This document shows positions 1-47,076 of a stretch of 64,000 nt of DNA, in pieces. Made by a program: the position numbers and the translations under genes. Within the stretch, counting starts at the first letter, position 1. Every line of letters starts with the position of its first letter. The stretch is taken from positions 1 through 64,000 of the forward strand of contig JAHRVQ010000011.1 in the NCBI GenBank assembly GCA_019090615.1, written 5' to 3'. This DNA is from Pseudomonadales bacterium. GTDB taxonomy: Bacteria > Pseudomonadota > Gammaproteobacteria > Pseudomonadales > Azotimanducaceae. A model generated the notes under the pieces. The model ran no database searches and was not told the origin of the DNA. It worked only from the letters and a program-made list of their open reading frames with translations.

Positions 1-575
1 ACCTGCCGTAGTTCACTCTCTTCTTCAAGGCTAAAGCGACACATTGCTAATCTATGGCCGTCTGTAGCCACTGTTCTTATATGCCCACCGCCTATTTCGA
101 ACAACATACCATTAAGAAAATAACGCACATCCTGCTGTGCCATCGCAAAAATCGTTCGGCTAATCAGGCGCTTTATTACATCGACATCAACCCTAAAATT
201 CAGGTCTGCCAATGTTTTGTCTATAGAGGGAAAATCAGTTGCTGGAAGGGTCGCTAACGTGGACCGGAAACGACCAGATCTGATGGTTAATTTTTGATCT
301 TTAAGACCAAATTCGATCTCTGCATTTTCTGGCAGTTCACGGCATATATCGACCAACTTGCGAGCAGGAACTGTTACCTCCCCTGGTTCAGCATTGTCCA
401 GTACAACGCGACTAATCATTTCTACTTCAAGATCAGTACCTATCAACGAAAGTAGATTTGACTCAACCTGAAACAAAACGTTAGATAAAACTGGTAAGGT
501 TTGACGCTTCTCAACGACACCTGTTACTTGCTGCAATGGCTTTATAAGCGCTTCTCTATTAACCTTAAATTTCAT
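1..575 (-). CDS. dnaN: DNA polymerase III beta sliding clamp, N-terminal part (cut by window edge)
   Basis: Reading the minus strand from the ATG at 575 gives an uninterrupted frame that leaves the window at base 1, about 191 residues. It begins MKFKVNREALIKPLQQV and contains TLPVLSNVLF and the ATDGHRLA motif, all typical of the beta clamp that encircles DNA and tethers the replicative polymerase. It covers roughly the first domain and part of the second of a protein usually about 366 residues long. It lies downstream of dnaA in the same direction with a gap of about 170 bases, the ancestral dnaA-dnaN order. The family assignment is firm; the C-terminus, including the partner-binding cleft, is outside the window. 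Confidence 0.97.
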   Translation of the reverse strand, partial: MKFKVNREALIKPLQQVTGVVEKRQTLPVLSNVLFQVESNLLSLIGTDLEVEMISRVVLDNAEPGEVTVPARKLVDICRELPENAEIEFGLKDQKLTIRSGRFRSTLATLPATDFPSIDKTLADLNFRVDVDVIKRLISRTIFAMAQQDVRYFLNGMLFEIGGGHIRTVATDGHRLAMCRFSLEEESELRQ

Positions 576-743
576 TATATCCCTGTGCTAATTAGTGCTT
601 ACCAACCCCATAAAGCCATGTTACCGCGAAATACCAAATTACATTTGCTTCAACAACGCCACGACCGAAATACAAAAAGAACTGGTTTTTCAAATGGAGT
701 TAAGCCAGCTTATTGACCATCTAGATATTGCTGTACTACAAAC

Positions 744-2078
744 TTAGGCGGTCAAAATACGCAGTAAATTATTATAATCCTCTCGAATATCCCTTGTATT
801 TTCACGAAGTTCTTCAATTTTTCTACAAGCATGTAAAACAGTAGTATGATCTCTACCACCAAAAGAATCACCAATTTCTGGCAAACTGTGATTTGTGAGT
901 TCCTTTGCAAGTGCCATTGCTACCTGCCTTGGGCGCGCTACTGACCTGTTCCTTCGTTTAGAATGCATATCGGAAATACGAATTTTGAAATAGTCTGCAA
1001 CTGTTTTTTGAATATTTTCGATGCCAACCTGGCGGTCCTGGATTGCCAGTAAATCATTCAAAGATTCTTTAACCTGACTAATGCTAATTTCTCGTTTAGT
1101 GAAATTCGCATTAGCAATTACCCTTTTTAGTGCGCCTTCAAGTTCTCTAACATTCGAACGGATTTTTTCTGCTATAAAAAAAGCAACCTCGTGTGGAAAA
1201 TTGATGGTTTCTGGTTCAGCTTTCTTTATCAATATAGCGGCACGAGTCTCCAGATCCGGCGGTTCAACAGATGCGGTCATACCCCATACAAACCGACTCT
1301 TTAACCTTTCTTCCAACCCAGGAATTTCCTTTGGGTATCGATCGCAAGTAAGAACTATCTGACTACCGTTTTCCTGTAAACGGTTAAAAACGTGAAAAAA
1401 TTCTTCTTGGGATTTAGCACCTTTGGCAAGAAATTGAATATCATCCATCAATAAAACATCTACATCTCTATAATATTGAGTGAAGTCATTCATTGCACCA
1501 CGTTCTATCGCTCGAACCATATCTTCCATAAAACGCTGAGAATACATATAGGCCACCCTGAGATGAGGATGTTTATCTATTATTGCATTGCCAACAGCAT
1601 GCATTAGATGGGTTTTGCCCAATCCTACTCCGCCATAAAGCAACAAACACTTTGATGTTCCGACGTTATCACAGACCTGTAACGCTGCGGCTCTGGCAAA
1701 TTCGTTTGATCTACCTGCCACAAAACTATCAAAGGTAAATTCTTTATTCAAATCAAGTAATGGATAAAATGCGCTGGCTTTCGCTGACTTTGCCTGCCTT
1801 GGACGGTTCAGTTTTTTATCGTTTGCATCATCCGAAATTGGAGTAGAAGTGCCAATATGCAATGACACTTGTTCAAGCCCATTAGCTAATAGAATCTCCT
1901 TAATACGACGCAAAAATTGATCATTAACCTGATCTCGAATATAACGATTCGGGGCCAATAATTTCATCACTCCGGATTCAGATTCTGCCTGTAAAGGCCT
2001 TATCCAGGTACTAAATTGCTTAGAAGATAATTCATCCTCTAGCTCCAACAAACATTTTTGCCAAACTGTCGCCCCCAC
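744..2078 (-). CDS. dnaA: Chromosomal replication initiator DnaA
   Basis: 444 residues. Domain I (about 1-80) is followed by a short linker, then the AAA+ domain with Walker [10 protein letters not shown] at about 149-157 and Walker B LLMDDI at 209-214. The C-terminal DNA-binding domain carries the DnaA signature [15 protein letters not shown] at about 407-421. DnaA-ATP binds DnaA boxes at oriC and opens the adjacent AT-rich DNA. The start is GTG at 2078, chosen because GGAGGG sits a few bases upstream and the N-terminus ([12 protein letters not shown]) matches family starts. The upstream region is the duplicated oriC, whose DnaA boxes could also mediate autoregulation (inference). Linker domain II is short, which is common. 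Confidence 0.99.
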
Positions 2079-2174
2079 AAGCCCTCCGTCGTTTTTTAAA
2101 ATTGAAAAACCCCAGAAATTTTTTCTTGATCATAAAATCAAACTTAACGCCTTTCTGGGCACGAATAGTAACTC

Positions 2175-2520
2175 CATTTAGTCCCTCAAGCCAACACTTG
2201 ATGAAAAAATATCTGTTTTAAATTTTCTTATTTTTCAATGGTTTATGGGACAACCTCTCAACATCCTATGGGTAAGCTGTGGGTAAGTTGTGTATAAAAA
2301 TCCCAGTTTGGTCGATGCAATTCTGCCTGTGGATAAAGACCGATTTTATACCCAGCTTATCTACAGGATAAGCACGTTTATTACATAATCTGACTACAGC
2401 CTTAGAAGTGCTCTATCCCTTTGAAAATTAACCCATAAATGGAGTAATACAGAATTTCAGCGTCTTAATAGTAACTAACAATAATAAATATTTTATATAT
2501 AACTAAAACTATTAATGTAG
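2175..2520 (+). repeat. oriC module, copy 1
   Basis: First of two diverged direct repeats. Order of elements: ACACTTGATG-type start at about 2193, TGTGGGTAA (2278-2286), TGTGTATAA (2289-2297), TGTGGATAA (2328-2336), then opposed boxes TTATACCCA (2346-2354) and TTATCTACA (2357-2365), then a spacer and the AT-rich stretch at about 2478-2515. The same order recurs in copy 2 at a constant offset of 416 bp through the box cluster, falling to 415 at the AT-rich end. Substitutions are scattered between the copies, so the duplication is not recent. Confidence 0.88.
2278..2365. promoter_or_regulatory. DnaA box cluster 1
   Basis: Three boxes read TTACCCACA, TTATACACA and TTATCCACA on the minus strand, followed by two boxes in the opposite orientation (TTATACCCA, TTATCTACA). 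Two match the consensus TTWTNCACA perfectly and the rest differ by one base or so. Confidence 0.85.
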
Positions 2521-2591
2521 ATGACCAATTAATCACCTCATGATTTACGCATTTTTATAAACCAACTGAAATATCATAACGAGTAAGCAAC

Positions 2592-2936
2592 AGCATTAAA
2601 TCCCCTCAGCAACACTTCATCAAAAATTTAGTGTTGAATTTCTCTATTTTTTAAACCTTATTTGAATAACCTCTCGATATCCTTTGAATAAATTGTGGGT
2701 AAGTTGTGTATAAGAATCACAATTTGGTTGATTCAGTTATACCTGTGGATAAAGGCCATATTTATACCCAGCTTATCTACAGGATAAACACCATTATTAC
2801 ACAATCTAACTACAGCCTTGAAAGTACTCTAACCCATTGAAAAATAAAAGATAAAAAGAGTAATACAGAATTACAAAGTCTTAATAATAAACAACAATAA
2901 TAAATATTTATATATAACTAAAACTACTATTATGAG
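2592..2936 (+). repeat. oriC module, copy 2
   Basis: Second direct copy, with TGTGGGTAA (2694-2702), TGTGTATAA (2705-2713), TGTGGATAA (2744-2752), TTATACCCA (2762-2770), TTATCTACA (2773-2781) and the AT-rich stretch at about 2889-2930. All five box positions are preserved relative to copy 1, while the bases between them differ at many places. About 70 bp of mostly unrelated sequence separates the two copies. Confidence 0.88.
2694..2781. promoter_or_regulatory. DnaA box cluster 2
   Basis: Same five boxes, order and orientation as cluster 1, 416 bp further on. Both perfect boxes are kept unchanged although neighbouring bases have diverged, which suggests that they are still bound by DnaA. Confidence 0.85.
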
Positions 2937-3020
2937 TGACTGACTGGTCAGATCTCCATTCGATAATATCATTACGAAATATCGAAACCTGAGAGTAGTT
3001 ACCTGGTAAGTCTATTAAAA

Positions 3021-3049
3021 TTGACAAATACGATGAACTTAATTAGACT
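3021..3049 (+). promoter_or_regulatory. Probable sigma70 promoter for rpmH operon
   Basis: TTGACA at 3021-3026 and TAGACT at 3044-3049 are 17 bp apart, 40 bases upstream of the rpmH start. A strong promoter here is expected for the rpmH-rnpA transcript. Confidence 0.65.
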
Positions 3050-3088
3050 CCCCGCTCATTTTTTCCGCCCCGACTATTGGTAATCAAG

Positions 3089-3223
3089 ATGAAGAGAACA
3101 TTTCAACCTAGTGTAATAAAACGAAAACGTAATCACGGTTTTCGTGCTCGAATGGCGACTAAAAATGGGCGCCTTGTTATAAAACGGCGTAGAGCCAAAG
3201 GACGCAAAGTTTTATCCGCATAA
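3089..3223 (+). CDS. rpmH: 50S ribosomal protein L34
   Basis: A 44-residue, very basic protein starting [22 protein letters not shown] and ending KGRKVLSA, which is unmistakable L34 of the large ribosomal subunit. The length is exactly that of the family. It is first in the operon rpmH-rnpA-yidD-yidC, diverging from dnaA across oriC, with a sigma70-like promoter just upstream. There is no strong Shine-Dalgarno sequence before the ATG. L34 is a late-assembling protein bound to 23S rRNA. Confidence 0.99.
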
Positions 3224-3256
3224 GTTAAACAGGATAATCTTGTTCATACCCATCTG

Positions 3257-3643
3257 ATGTTACATGAACGATATCAATCTGATCGTAGATTACTAACGTC
3301 AGATGAATTTGATGTGGTTTTTAAAAAAAATAATTACCGCATGGGATCCTCTGAATTCCTAATTCTTGCTATGGACACGCAAAACGAATCCAGTCGTTTA
3401 GGCATGGTTATTGGTAAAAGAAACACCGCACTGGCAGTCAACAGAAATCTGATCAAACGTTTAATACGCGAATCTTTCAGAAGGAAATTCCCTAAAAACA
3501 TAGCGATTGACATCGTGATTGTTTCTCGGCAGGGAATTAATAAGGCGCATAATATTGAACTACTTGAACGATTGGAAAGCGCCTGGAATAAACTTGCTAA
3601 AAAAGTAGTTAAAAATTATCAAACTGGTTCAAAACATGATTAA
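3257..3643 (+). CDS. rnpA: Ribonuclease P protein component
   Basis: 128 residues. The RNase P protein signature RNLIKRLIRESFR lies at about 63-75, with the basic face expected for binding the catalytic RNA that trims tRNA 5' leaders. The N-terminus has the FDVVFKKN region of the family. It follows rpmH by 33 bases and its end overlaps yidD by 8 bases, consistent with one transcript and coupled translation. The ATG at 3257 is the first good start in frame. Confidence 0.98.
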   Translation: MLHERYQSDRRLLTSDEFDVVFKKNNYRMGSSEFLILAMDTQNESSRLGMVIGKRNTALAVNRNLIKRLIRESFRRKFPKNIAIDIVIVSRQGINKAHNIELLERLESAWNKLAKKVVKNYQTGSKHD

Positions 3644-3869
3644 ACAATTAGCATTAGCTACTATTCGTTTATATCAAATTTTTTTCAGTTATATATTTGG
3701 CCCTTGTTGCAGGTTTTATCCCAGCTGTTCTAGCTATGCAGAACAATCTATACAACAACACGGTATTTTTAAAGGCGTATGGCTTACCACAAAGCGCATA
3801 ACGAAATGTCATCCATTTCATTCTGGCGGTGTTGATTTAGTACCTCCAAACGATAAATTCAAAGGTTAG
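3636..3869 (+). CDS. yidD: Membrane protein insertion efficiency factor YidD
   Basis: 77 residues with the family hallmark CRFYPSCSSYA at 25-35 and a downstream KGVWLTTKRITKCHPF segment. Members are small membrane-associated proteins encoded between rnpA and yidC that improve membrane protein insertion. An amphipathic/hydrophobic N-terminus (about 5-22) may associate with the membrane. It overlaps rnpA by 8 bases and ends 4 bases before the yidC ATG. Confidence 0.97.
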   Translation: MIKQLALATIRLYQIFFSYIFGPCCRFYPSCSSYAEQSIQQHGIFKGVWLTTKRITKCHPFHSGGVDLVPPNDKFKG

Positions 3870-3873
3870 ATTG

Positions 3874-5571
3874 ATGGATTTTCAACGCATTTTAATATTA
3901 CTGGGCATGGCAGTAACAGCCTATATGTTGATTCTGGCTTGGAATGATGATTATGGTCAACAATCAAGGCTTAATTCAGATTTTCCAGTGACCCTTGAAC
4001 AAGAAGATACCCTATACCAGGAGATTGAAACCAGTACTGCAGGACATTTAACATTAGAAAATTCTGCTGTTGATGTCCCTACTCTCACAGCTGAAAAACA
4101 GCAATACGATCAATTACCTGAGCTTGCTGAACCTTTGATGGAACAACGGTTAGTTCATATTACGACTGATGTATTTAATTTGAAAATTGATCGATTAGGC
4201 GGTGACATTGTTCACGGTGCACTACCAAAATATCCGCAAGCCCTGGAAACACCGGATATCCCCTTTGTTTTATTAGATCAACGTAATCAATATAGCGCAC
4301 AAAGCGGCCTGATTGGTAAAAACGGCACTGATACATCCAATGGCCGGCCATTATTTTCAGTAGCTAAAAGCCATTATGATATTGGTTCAAACGACCAGCT
4401 TGTAATTGATTTTAAATTATTTACTGAAACTGGTGTTGAGATAATCAAGCGCTTTACCTTCAATAAAGGCGATTACCTCATTAATATTGAATATATAGTA
4501 TCTAATCAAACATCTGACCTTTGGCAAGCGGCTTTTTATACTCAGATAAAAAGAAATGGACAGGAACCTGTATCTGCAGAATCTTCTGGTATGGGTATGA
4601 AGCCTTATACAGGTGCTGCAACTTTTAATATTGATTCTCCTTATACCAAACTTAGTTTCGACGATATTGCTGAGGATACCTATCAGGCTAAGGTCGAAGC
4701 AGGTTATATGGCGTTAGTTCAACATTACTTTGTTTCTGCCTGGGTACCTGCTGATCGACAAGTTTATAAATATCAGGCACGCAAACTTGCTGATAAAGAT
4801 ATTTATCTTTTTGGGTTCACAAGTCCCCTGTGGGAGATTAATCCAGGTGAAACCGCCACACAAAAAGCTAGCTTTTATCTAGGGCCAAAAAATCAGGACC
4901 GGCTGGAAGAAATATCCGATGGACTTAATTTAACCGTCGATTATGGTTTCCTCTGGTGGTTGGCTCAACCGTTATTTCAGCTACTCGCTTTTATTCATGG
5001 CTTTGTTAACAATTGGGGCATAGCTATTATTTTTTTAACAATATTTGTTAAATCTTTACTTTATCCCTTGTCTGCAGCCAGTTTTCGTTCAATGGCCAAA
5101 ATGCGCAAATTACAACCTGAAATGGCTCGCCTTAAAGAACGCTTTGGTGATGACAAACAAAAATTTTCCCAGGCGATGATGGAGCTATATAAAAAAGAGG
5201 GTGCTAACCCGTTAGGCGGATGTTTACCGATGCTTGCTCAGATGCCAGTGTTTTTAGCCTTATACTGGTCGTTAATGGAGAGCGTGGAACTAAGACAGGC
5301 GCCCTTCTTTTTATGGATAAATGATCTGTCTGCTATGGATCCGTATTTTGTGCTGCCAATTTTGATGGGTATATCAATGTTTGTTACTCAAATGCTGCAG
5401 CCTGAGCCACCTGACCCGATCCAGGCTAAAGTGTTTAAATTAATGCCTATAATGTTTACCTTTTTCTTTCTCTGGTTTCCGTCTGGCCTGGTTCTGTATT
5501 GGTTTATTAACAATCTGCTTTCTATTCTGCAGCAGTGGTATGTCACACGTCAGATTGAAAAATCTTCATAG
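3874..5571 (+). CDS. yidC: Membrane protein insertase YidC
   Basis: 565 residues from the ATG at 3874; a TTG three bases earlier would add only one residue. One N-terminal membrane segment (about 5-23) is followed by a large periplasmic beta-sandwich domain of the Gram-negative type (to about 340) and then the conserved five-helix insertase core, including the MAKMRKLQPEM loop and the GGCLPMLAQMPVF segment. The charged residue in the hydrophilic groove appears to be Lys (IFVKSLLYPL) where E. coli has Arg, which I recall also in Pseudomonas. It inserts membrane proteins alone or with SecYEG, probably including the ATP synthase subunits encoded downstream. Confidence 0.98.
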   Translation: MDFQRILILLGMAVTAYMLILAWNDDYGQQSRLNSDFPVTLEQEDTLYQEIETSTAGHLTLENSAVDVPTLTAEKQQYDQLPELAEPLMEQRLVHITTDVFNLKIDRLGGDIVHGALPKYPQALETPDIPFVLLDQRNQYSAQSGLIGKNGTDTSNGRPLFSVAKSHYDIGSNDQLVIDFKLFTETGVEIIKRFTFNKGDYLINIEYIVSNQTSDLWQAAFYTQIKRNGQEPVSAESSGMGMKPYTGAATFNIDSPYTKLSFDDIAEDTYQAKVEAGYMALVQHYFVSAWVPADRQVYKYQARKLADKDIYLFGFTSPLWEINPGETATQKASFYLGPKNQDRLEEISDGLNLTVDYGFLWWLAQPLFQLLAFIHGFVNNWGIAIIFLTIFVKSLLYPLSAASFRSMAKMRKLQPEMARLKERFGDDKQKFSQAMMELYKKEGANPLGGCLPMLAQMPVFLALYWSLMESVELRQAPFFLWINDLSAMDPYFVLPILMGISMFVTQMLQPEPPDPIQAKVFKLMPIMFTFFFLWFPSGLVLYWFINNLLSILQQWYVTRQIEKSS

Positions 5572-5583
5572 AGCCTCAGTAAC

Positions 5584-6957
5584 GTGCAACGTGGTCTAAC
5601 CGATAAAAGTACCATCGCCGCACTTGCCACACCGAGTGGTAGAGGCGGTATTGGTATTGTCCGTATATCTGGACCAGATGCTAAATCGATAGCAAAAATT
5701 GTTACCCAGAAAAATCTGACACCGCGGCAAGCGACCTACTGTAATTTCTTTGATGATGACCATAGCGTTATTGATCAGGGTATTAGTTTGTTATTCCCAG
5801 CTCCTCATTCTTTTACAGGTGAAAATGTACTTGAACTGCAGGGTCATGGTGGTCCAGTGGTAATGGATATGTTGTTAAGCCGGGTTATTTCCTTGGGTGC
5901 TAGAATAGCTGAACCCGGTGAATTTTCCGCGCGAGCATTTTTGAATGACAAAATAGATTTATCGCAGGCGGAAGCAATATCAGACCTGATTAATAGCGCC
6001 AGTCAACAAGCAGCGAAAGGTGCTATAAGGTCATTGCAAGGTGAATTTTCTAATTCAATTGAAGATTTGGATTCAAGGGTGGTTGCAATGCGGTTGTATA
6101 TTGAAGCTGCTATTGATTTTCCAGAAGAAGAAATAGATTTTTTATCGGATCAAAAAATCCAGAAAAGTTTATCTGAAATTGATTCATCGTTTCTATCAGT
6201 GCTCAAGAGTGCAACTCAGGGGGCATTGCTAAGAGAAGGGATTAATTTAGTACTGGCTGGACGCCCCAATGCAGGTAAATCGAGTCTAATGAACTGTTTA
6301 GCTGGTAAAAATGCCTCCATCGTCACGGCTATTGCTGGCACTACTCGAGATATTGTTGATGAATATATACATCTAGATGGCATACCTATAAGGCTGGTTG
6401 ACACAGCAGGTATCCATGCGGCGAAGGATGAAGTTGAAAAAGAAGGAATTCGGCGAGCATTTGATGAACTGCAGCATACTGATGCGGCAATTATTCTAAT
6501 AGATTTGAGCCTGGACAAAGCCTGGGAAAAAGTTGTTGATCAATTACTCATAGAAATCCCCTATAATTCGACTGTAAAACCATTGATCGTTTTAAATAAA
6601 ATGGATCTTGTAGATTCTCTGCCAACAGAACAGTTATACCGTGCTATGCCAGTTATTTGTGTTTCTGCAAAAAAAGGCGAAGGAATTGAGTCGTTAAAGG
6701 GCTTGCTTAAAGAAATTTTGGCCATAGATTTTTCAGAGGAAGGATCCTTTATTGCCCGTTCACGCCATATAGATGCAATTAATCGAGCCTATGAACATTT
6801 AAAAGAAGGCCGGAATCAACTTGATCAATTTCAGGCAGGTGAGTTACTTGCTGAAGAATTACGATATTGTCATGAGTCTTTATGTGAAATTACAGGTCAA
6901 TTCACTTCAGACGATCTATTGGGTCGGATATTTTCGACGTTTTGTATTGGCAAATAA
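5584..6957 (+). CDS. mnmE: tRNA modification GTPase MnmE
   Basis: 457 residues starting at GTG 5584. An N-terminal tetrahydrofolate-binding domain is followed by a helical domain into which a G domain is inserted: G1 GRPNAGKSS at about 225-233, DTAGI, NKMD and SAKK motifs. The C-terminus ends FCIGK, containing the conserved cysteine motif needed for function. With MnmG it makes the 5-carboxymethylaminomethyl group on wobble uridines of tRNAs. It follows yidC by 12 bases and precedes mnmG by 97 bases. Confidence 0.98.
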   Translation: MQRGLTDKSTIAALATPSGRGGIGIVRISGPDAKSIAKIVTQKNLTPRQATYCNFFDDDHSVIDQGISLLFPAPHSFTGENVLELQGHGGPVVMDMLLSRVISLGARIAEPGEFSARAFLNDKIDLSQAEAISDLINSASQQAAKGAIRSLQGEFSNSIEDLDSRVVAMRLYIEAAIDFPEEEIDFLSDQKIQKSLSEIDSSFLSVLKSATQGALLREGINLVLAGRPNAGKSSLMNCLAGKNASIVTAIAGTTRDIVDEYIHLDGIPIRLVDTAGIHAAKDEVEKEGIRRAFDELQHTDAAIILIDLSLDKAWEKVVDQLLIEIPYNSTVKPLIVLNKMDLVDSLPTEQLYRAMPVICVSAKKGEGIESLKGLLKEILAIDFSEEGSFIARSRHIDAINRAYEHLKEGRNQLDQFQAGELLAEELRYCHESLCEITGQFTSDDLLGRIFSTFCIGK

Positions 6958-7054
6958 CGTTAGCAATAAATGATATCGTCTGAATAGCGTAGACAATAGC
7001 ACTATCAAGCGTATACTCTCCCACCCGAATTTCGACGACCCAGGTTTTCAATAA

Positions 7055-8941
7055 ATGAACTATCCTAAGCAATTTGATGTAATTGTTGTTGGCGGTGGTC
7101 ATGCCGGAACCGAAGCGGCTTTGGCAGCGGCAAGAATGGGCTGTAAAACCCTATTGGTTACGCAAAATATTGAAACCCTGGGCCAAATGTCGTGCAATCC
7201 TGCGATAGGTGGGATCGGCAAGAGCCATTTGGTGAAAGAGATAGATGCCCTGGGTGGTGTTATGGGTTTGGCCGCGGACCAAGCGGGCATTCACTTTCGG
7301 GTTTTAAATTCTCGTAAAGGACCGGCCGTAAGAGCCACACGCGCACAGGCGGATCGTCAACTATACAAACAGGTAATCCGGGTTTATCTTGAAAATCAGC
7401 AAAATTTGCAGATATTTCAACAATCTGTGGATGATCTAATTGTTGAACAGAATACTGTCTGTGGTGTGATCACCAATAGTGGCATTCGTTTTCGATCTCG
7501 AACAGTAGTTTTAACCGTGGGTACTTTCTTAGGCGGCATTATACATTTGGGGCTGGAAAAACAATCTGGTGGACGTGCTGCAGATCCGGCTTCCAATAGA
7601 TTATCAGATCGATTACGAGAATTACCTTTTAAAGTAGATCGATTAAAAACCGGTACGCCACCACGAATTGATGGTAGGACAGTTAACTTTTCAGTATTAG
7701 AGCCGCAACCAGGTGATCAACCACGGCCAGTAATGTCTTATATAAACACCACGGCGGATCATCCACAGCAGGTAAATTGTTTTATTACGCAGACTAATGC
7801 GCGTACCCATGAAATTATATCAAAAGGCCTTGATCGGTCACCGTTGTTTACTGGTGAAATAGACGGTGTAGGGCCAAGGTATTGCCCTTCTATTGAAGAT
7901 AAGGTGGTGCGTTTTGCTGATCGAGACTCACATCAAATTTTTGTTGAACCAGAAGGACTGAATACCCATGAATTGTATCCAAACGGTATATCAACCAGCT
8001 TACCATTTGATGTGCAATTAGAACTGGTTAGAAGTATTAAGGGTTTTGAAAGTGCAGAAATTACTCGGCCAGGGTATGCAATTGAATATGATTTTTTTGA
8101 CCCTAGAGAACTGAAATTTTCTCTGGAGACTAAACATCTTGAAGGGCTTTATTTTGCAGGACAGATTAATGGTACTACCGGCTATGAAGAGGCTGCAGCA
8201 CAGGGCCTAATAGCGGGTATTAATGCTGCACTTCAGTGTTCTGAGCGGCCACCCTGGTGCCCCGCCAGGAATGAAGCTTATATAGGTGTTCTGATAGATG
8301 ATCTTATAACGGACGGTACTAAAGAACCCTATCGAATGTTTACCAGTAGAGCAGAATACCGGCTGATTTTACGACAGGATAATGCTGATCGGAGATTGAC
8401 TGAAATGGGCCGATCCATGGGCCTGATTGATGAACATAGATGGCACCGTTTTGGTGAGAAAACCAGTTTGTTAAAAGAGAGAAACGTTATACTAAAAAGT
8501 CATTGGTGCCAGCCAGGGGATATCAATGTTGAAACTTATCTCGGCCAAAAATTGTCCAGAGAATATAACCTGGCAGAATTGTTACGGCGACCGAAAGTAC
8601 AGATTGAAGCACTTTTGAAGGCAATAGCACTAGATTGGCCTGATACAGAAGTGAATGAACAGCTTGAAATTGATCTTAAATATGCGGGTTATATCGCGCG
8701 ACAGGAAGATGAAATTGCTCGCATTCGAACCCAACATGACGTTGAACTGCCAGCTGATATGAATTATGCAGAGATAAAGGGTTTGTCGAATGAGGTGAAA
8801 CAAAAGTTACAAGAGGTTCAACCTCAGTCTATTGGGCAGGCTACACGTATTTCTGGTGTTACACCTGCAGCTATATCGCTGCTACTTATTTATCTGAAGA
8901 AATCTAAATTGCTTGTTAAACAACATGTAATTAATCAGTAA
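7055..8941 (+). CDS. mnmG: tRNA uridine-5-carboxymethylaminomethyl modification enzyme MnmG
   Basis: 628 residues. The FAD-binding dinucleotide fold [10 protein letters not shown] is at about 13-22, followed by the [10 protein letters not shown] segment with the conserved cysteine, a second nucleotide site around [16 protein letters not shown], and the C-terminal helical domain that contacts MnmE. Length and motifs match the family throughout. It partners with the upstream MnmE in wobble-uridine modification. The ATG at 7055 is the natural start. Confidence 0.98.
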
Positions 8942-47057: not shown

Positions 47058-47076
47058 TGTTTAAATACCTGTTGTG

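Follow-up and report, generated by a model that had tools for sequence, protein, structure and literature searches.

The gap between dnaA and rpmH in a Pseudomonadales bacterium carries two tandem, diverged copies of an origin module, and among the genomes examined this duplication is restricted to this one. The two copies have decayed unequally, with both cores kept. The reading that we consider best, at a probability of about two in three, is a twin oriC specific to this lineage, either core of which would be able to bind DnaA and open, with copy A keeping the dnaA promoter and copy B being origin-only. Judged by its anatomy, the pair belongs with the DnaA-dependent oriC, and it is a real, unusual variant of a well-known element that is well supported as sequence evolution. 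From the sequence we infer DnaA binding, opening, the identity of the promoter and the use of both copies.

The analyzed stretch of DNA is a window of 64 kb at the start of its contig, taken from a single draft genome (92 contigs, 4.88 Mb, 97.5% complete, estimated contamination 0.17%). Among named relatives, the closest are draft genomes from the Pseudomonadales; almost all are MAGs, and some carry the label OM182 or K189A clade. A partial gene that we take to be dnaN is transcribed leftward from the gap together with dnaA, whose identity was checked in Pfam, and what are presumably rpmH, rnpA, yidC, mnmE and mnmG are transcribed rightward. The gap spans 2079-3088 (1010 bp). The GC skew is negative across 1-3000, close to zero between 3 and 5 kb and positive from ~6 kb onward, and it reverses locally at ~37-43 kb; the gap thus adjoins dnaA and rpmH at the skew change, as an oriC is expected to. 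A plasmid-borne origin was rejected, since 2079-3090 has no blastn match in 72,556 plasmid records. An Rfam RNA search of positions 1-8000 of the window gave no match, and a promoter scan found 6 sites, where 5.1 are expected in shuffles. The features of the locus are collected in Table 1.

Table 1. Features of the dnaA-rpmH gap and its flanks in window positions. For the five segments (A coordinates), changes at family-conserved columns are given as B only/A only/both changed/total conserved columns.
Feature	Position	Strand	Changes	Basis or remark
dnaA	744-2078	-		ORF list, 444 aa; Pfam Bac_DnaA, Bac_DnaA_C, DnaA_N
Origin module copy A (dnaA-proximal)	2161-2525			Self-BLAST of gap (gap 83-447) and repeat search
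Origin module copy B (rpmH-proximal)	2579-2940			Self-BLAST of gap (gap 501-862)
Promoter-like element, copy A, probable dnaA promoter	2165-2194	-		-35 TTGGCT 2194-2189, 18 nt, -10 TACTAT 2170-2165
Decayed counterpart of the element, copy B	2579-2618	-		8/16 conserved columns changed, no HMM match
DnaA box A1 TTACCCACA	2278-2286	-		Recurs unchanged as B1, 2694-2702 (-)
DnaA box A2 TTATACACA	2289-2297	-		Recurs unchanged as B2, 2705-2713 (-)
DnaA box A3 TTATCCACA	2328-2336	-		Recurs unchanged as B3, 2744-2752 (-)
DnaA box A4 TTATACCCA (weak)	2346-2354	+		Recurs unchanged as B4, 2762-2770 (+)
DnaA box A5 TTATCTACA	2357-2365	+		Recurs unchanged as B5, 2773-2781 (+)
Unwinding element, copy A, trinucleotide runs TAATAGTAA and TAATAA	2466-2515			Least stable 50-bp window of gap, z 2.82
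Unwinding element, copy B, trinucleotide runs TAATAATAA and TAATAA	2884-2933			Second least stable 50-bp window, z 2.75
Promoter-like site TTGACA-17-TAGACT before rpmH, outside duplicated unit	3021-3049	+		Promoter scan, 10/12
rpmH	3089-3223	+		ORF list; served as tblastn query
Segment: promoter-like	2161-2200		8/0/0/16	
Segment: left AT-rich	2201-2260		4/0/1/23	
Segment: box cluster	2261-2372		1/0/5/44	
Segment: spacer	2373-2455		0/1/4/18	
Segment: pre-element and unwinding element	2456-2512		0/2/7/29	

The preliminary description of this DNA had proposed two direct copies of a module offset by 416 bp, and both the repeat search and a self-BLAST of the gap bear this out. The repeat search gives a direct repeat of 288 nt, 2206-2493 and 2622-2909, with 80% ungapped identity and a spacing of 416; with gaps, the copies are 78% identical over 366 columns at an E value of 1e-80, by which a chance repeat was rejected, and in the module alignment they are 75.8% identical over 360 aligned columns. 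Across the window, the pair is the sole direct repeat of at least 80 nt within 2 kb that this search finds; one more, an unrelated 85-bp repeat at 47069/47195, comes from a BLAST scan. In 400 kb sampled from this genome (~8%) there are 3 places (6 matches) with repeats of at least 80 nt within 2.5 kb, and in 400 kb of a sister genome (G003) there are 2 (2 matches); in samples that are small and non-random, there is no clear excess of tandem intergenic repeats over the sister. One further intergenic array of four copies lies in a non-coding gap upstream of a DUF4212 gene (contig C33:42580-44190). Its unit is ~430 bp, with tandem spacings of 434, 409 and 442, and the copies are 73-76% identical to the first; each of the four copies has an intact 27-mer core that contains TTATCCACA on the minus strand (one variable position), and this pattern, with at most 3 mismatches, was found in one of 38 genomes, which is this one. 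On contig C12:1-3000 there are also three non-coding repeats ~930 bp apart between small genes that by eye resemble toxin-antitoxin pairs, perhaps a cassette array such as an integron.

Each copy of the module holds five DnaA boxes in a common order and orientation, as had been claimed, and the 9-mers are identical at +416. The substitutions described between unchanged boxes are likewise present: within 2270-2372 the copies differ at 17 of the 58 non-box positions and at none of the 45 box positions (Fisher 2.1e-5), and over all positions compared the box count of 0/45 stands against 59/243 elsewhere (24%; Fisher 2.4e-5). When the five-box pattern was slid over the copies in 200 registers, zero mismatches were obtained at the true register alone (mean 8.5). 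A sixth, outer box position is not conserved between the copies and reads TTACCCATA in A and TTATTCAAA in B. Both copies have the DnaA-box cluster of an oriC in the family arrangement, with the same box spacing as in the family modules. Against a model whose alignment includes A and B, and omits three of 48 relatives that contain N, the clusters score 67.0 (A) and 56.9 bits (B); against a profile built without the two copies they score 60.7 and 54.9 bits, and the median of the 48 relatives is 56.5 (leave-one-out controls). At the box position directly before the unwinding element, where the family consensus is TTATCCACA, both copies have the TAATAGAGA-like TAATACAGA. The consensus 9-mer is likewise lacking there in the genomes G001 and G004, so we do not treat this box as defining for an oriC. 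Genome-wide, DnaA-box-like sites are over-represented by the count of TTATNCACA, with 167 occurrences vs 87 for the reversed control pattern, some of them being adapter ends. One remote cluster, on contig C89:5175-5248, has three DnaA-box-like sites spaced by 11 bp (24.6 bits with the origin box model) and sits between transporter-like genes, permease-like and binding-protein-like by eye.

An AT-rich stretch had also been noted after the boxes of each copy, and among all 50-bp windows in the gap these stretches prove to be the two least stable, the third having a z of only 1.28 vs 2.82 and 2.75. By computed stability, an unwinding element that is predicted to open therefore lies beside the boxes in both copies. 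The trinucleotide runs in the two elements are of the kind described as DnaA-trios (PMC12342881; PMC5124646). With an unwinding-element profile, A scores 10.1 and B 15.3 bits, both under the relatives' median of 19.0 (leave-one-out, 48 relatives).

For comparison with relatives, 104 distinct dnaA-upstream sequences were assembled from 40 genomes and 80 named loci, 16 being identical in pairs. Of the 103 others, 99 have a complete dnaA-rpmH gap, and four (G009, G017, G021 and L147, the last of which holds no gap) lack rpmH on the far side. A direct self-repeat is found in one of the 104, namely this one, and the gaps of the four genomes from the same genus measure 698, 578, 569 and 652 bp and contain one module each. 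A 111-position box-cluster model was also run against 206 family genomes, of which 78 matched; the 128 without a match are not judgeable, weak matches being lost to filters. Among the places listed, two same-strand matches in one gap occur in this genome only, and wherever else a second match is listed, it either covers the same place on the opposite strand, falls on a different contig or is weak. One genome (G190) has two same-strand module matches, on contigs C108 and C23, which are 93.7% identical over 3.4 kb; these probably reflect two strains mixed in the bin and were rejected as a second case. It had been set beforehand that relatives with one copy would count against a maintained pair. 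A single copy is indeed what was seen in the four genomes from the same genus and in the other relatives that were examined, which places the duplication in this lineage. Copy B need not be dead for that reason, as the B core has a single B-only change at 91 conserved columns.

The modules of 48 of the 103 others, the closer relatives, could be aligned, the remainder being too distant. In a tree with these relatives, A and B form a clade with support 99.9/100 and are thus nearer to one another than to any other module; in the closest relative, the module shares 59.5% identity with A and 55.3% with B. Among single-copy modules, 14 pairs reach the likeness of A and B (72-80%), and they come from species with DnaA proteins 91-97% identical (median 93.7%), so the duplication is about as old as close-species splits. 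It is also conceivable that copy B was transferred from an unsampled near relative.

With conserved columns defined as those conserved at 70% or more in the 48 relatives, and segment borders set by eye after viewing the alignment, the promoter-like segment and left flank have 12 B-only and no A-only changes at 39 conserved columns, while at the 91 conserved columns of the core (box cluster, spacer and unwinding element) one change is B-only and three are A-only. The contrast in B-only changes, 12/39 vs 1/91, is significant (Fisher p 1.4e-6), and with a threshold of 0.8 it is 4/11 for the promoter-like segment vs 2/80 for 2201-2512 (p 0.0016). Both copies depart from the family consensus at 16 of the 91 core columns. 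Overall B evolves faster, with branch lengths of 0.270 vs 0.056 for A and p<0.05 in a relative-rate test with 5 of 10 outgroups; the branches of B and A are 1.17 vs 0.014 in the upstream-segment tree and 0.121 vs 0.072 in the core-segment tree. In its left AT-rich part, copy B has lost the conserved C at 2236 (A coordinate), which falls in a sequence that resembles an IHF site. The earlier claim that the copies are old and both maintained can thus be retained for their age and for the cores, both of which look maintained; it does not extend to the whole of copy B, which is without the promoter-like element of copy A.

This element keeps 16/16 family-conserved columns in copy A. With the promoter-element profile A scores 21.3 bits, B gives no match, and the relatives' median is 14.4 (leave-one-out, 48 relatives). 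The family form is GATAGTAAC-CCAT...AAGCCAA, which toward dnaA reads as a TANTAT -10 with TTGGCT as a possible -35, and the ATANTA core (TANTAT -10) is present in 43 of the 48 relatives, where 0.21 is expected per 40 bp. The element of copy A is absent from the promoter scan list; by eye it has 8/12 consensus matches, and the scan threshold was 9. Among relatives the element lies at a variable distance from dnaA (mean 120, sd 38), while the second box is 121-125 nt away from it in 31/48 relatives, 111-114 in 14/48 and 133-149 in 3/48. Such a fixed, perhaps helically phased, box distance fits a DnaA-regulated dnaA promoter, and we regard the element as the probable dnaA promoter, kept by copy A only. 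As B has lost it, the copies are not equivalent. The element could alternatively be a part of the origin, and copy B would then be a trimmed origin.

One possible option, which we find rather doubtful, is that a single copy fires and the other is kept for DnaA capture or dnaA regulation. The likeliest split would then be either that B is the origin and A an autoregulatory promoter carrying boxes, or that A is the origin and B a titration cluster near it. All five boxes are kept in both copies, the promoter-like element is kept by A only, and the changes at the 29 conserved columns of the unwinding element number 2 in A and 0 in B, all of which agrees with such a split; near-origin accumulation of boxes and DnaA titration are also reported in E. 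coli (PMC12371093). However, both unwinding elements are kept, as the two least stable windows and with so few copy-specific changes, and a pure titration site should need no unwinding element. That copy B is a functionless, slowly decaying leftover is very improbable. Its faster evolution and lost promoter-like element would agree with this, yet the B-only changes are concentrated upstream and nearly absent from the conserved core columns, the boxes are unchanged, and the box-cluster score of B is near the relatives' median; simple decay of B was rejected on these grounds.

Another hypothesis is that the cores are alike due to gene conversion between the copies and not to selection on each. 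The core is less diverged even at family-variable columns (21/85 vs 17/35 upstream), so conversion may contribute to the likeness. As the sole cause it is unlikely, since the longest identical runs (20, 13 and 27 nt) coincide with boxes and mismatches lie between them, and since inside the core the boxes have 0/45 mismatches vs 40/188 at non-box positions (p 1.1e-4); conversion could still add to the effect. An assembly artefact, or the joined origins of two strains, is hardly credible either. The genome is a draft in many contigs, and two of these (C3:1-45 and C21:1-45) start with a sequence that looks to us like the Nextera/Tn5 adapter, which means that trimming was incomplete and that some TTATACACA matches at contig ends are artefacts. 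Against this, A and B differ by ~24%, their longest identical run is the 27 nt given above, each copy has its own flank, and the estimated contamination is low.

Among known systems, the closest likeness is to the single-module oriC of related Pseudomonadales (Pseudomonas-type placement), which has in common the place, the order, orientation and spacing of the boxes, and the AT-rich element after them; there, one module lies in each dnaA-rpmH gap and here there are two. Bipartite origins, such as those of Bacillus subtilis and Helicobacter pylori, likewise have two DnaA-box clusters near dnaA. According to their description, a spacer gene, usually dnaA, separates the two clusters, and only one of these has an unwinding element (PMC4285127). 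In contrast, A and B are recent paralogues with an unwinding element in each and no accepted gene between them, and a bipartite origin was rejected; a 44-aa ORF at 2706-2840 was rejected as a spacer gene because it lies inside module B. Two candidate origins per chromosome are also known from the putative double origins of Gao (2015), e.g., in Acidaminococcus fermentans and Ochrobactrum anthropi, and from two replicating elements of P. aeruginosa, of which only one is essential according to work cited there (PMC4403523). These cases are split by dnaA, lie in duplicated gene clusters or are far apart, whereas at the present locus 416 bp alone are duplicated in tandem, inside a single gap. In titles and the first lines of abstracts, we found no description of a whole oriC that is naturally duplicated in tandem within a single gap, which does not prove that none exists.

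A mechanism for the favored twin oriC can be proposed from this anatomy. The host would be a Pseudomonadales bacterium related to the OM182/K189A lineages and the locus its chromosomal origin. A unit of ~416 bp that comprises the probable dnaA promoter together with the DnaA-box cluster and the unwinding element was duplicated tandemly inside the dnaA-rpmH gap after the split from the sampled relatives, and selection since then would have kept both cores. DnaA would fill one or both box clusters, the adjacent right-hand AT-rich element would open and the replisome would be loaded. As the copies are 416 bp apart, firing at one would replicate the other at once and make it redundant in that round, so the pair would act as one composite initiation locus with DnaA binding doubled. 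With the doubled binding, initiation might become more robust, or it might be delayed because more DnaA is retained. In copy A the boxes would lie at the dnaA promoter, with the fixed spacing that autoregulation by DnaA leads one to expect, and copy B would have become origin-only by shedding that promoter.

The maintained cores suggest that both copies are still in use. Tentatively, and with the odds somewhat against it, we can propose that A and B are two complete, separately competent tandem oriC units that have been under selection since the duplication with their labour divided, A serving as origin and in dnaA autoregulation and B as origin only. If this is true, the origin would, through the duplication, no longer have had to share its boxes with the dnaA promoter. 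The twin in one gap would be a natural test, with the same DnaA and the same locus acting on two diverged copies, in which the positions kept and lost may show what an origin needs, and the pair would indicate that the functions of origin and dnaA promoter are separable.
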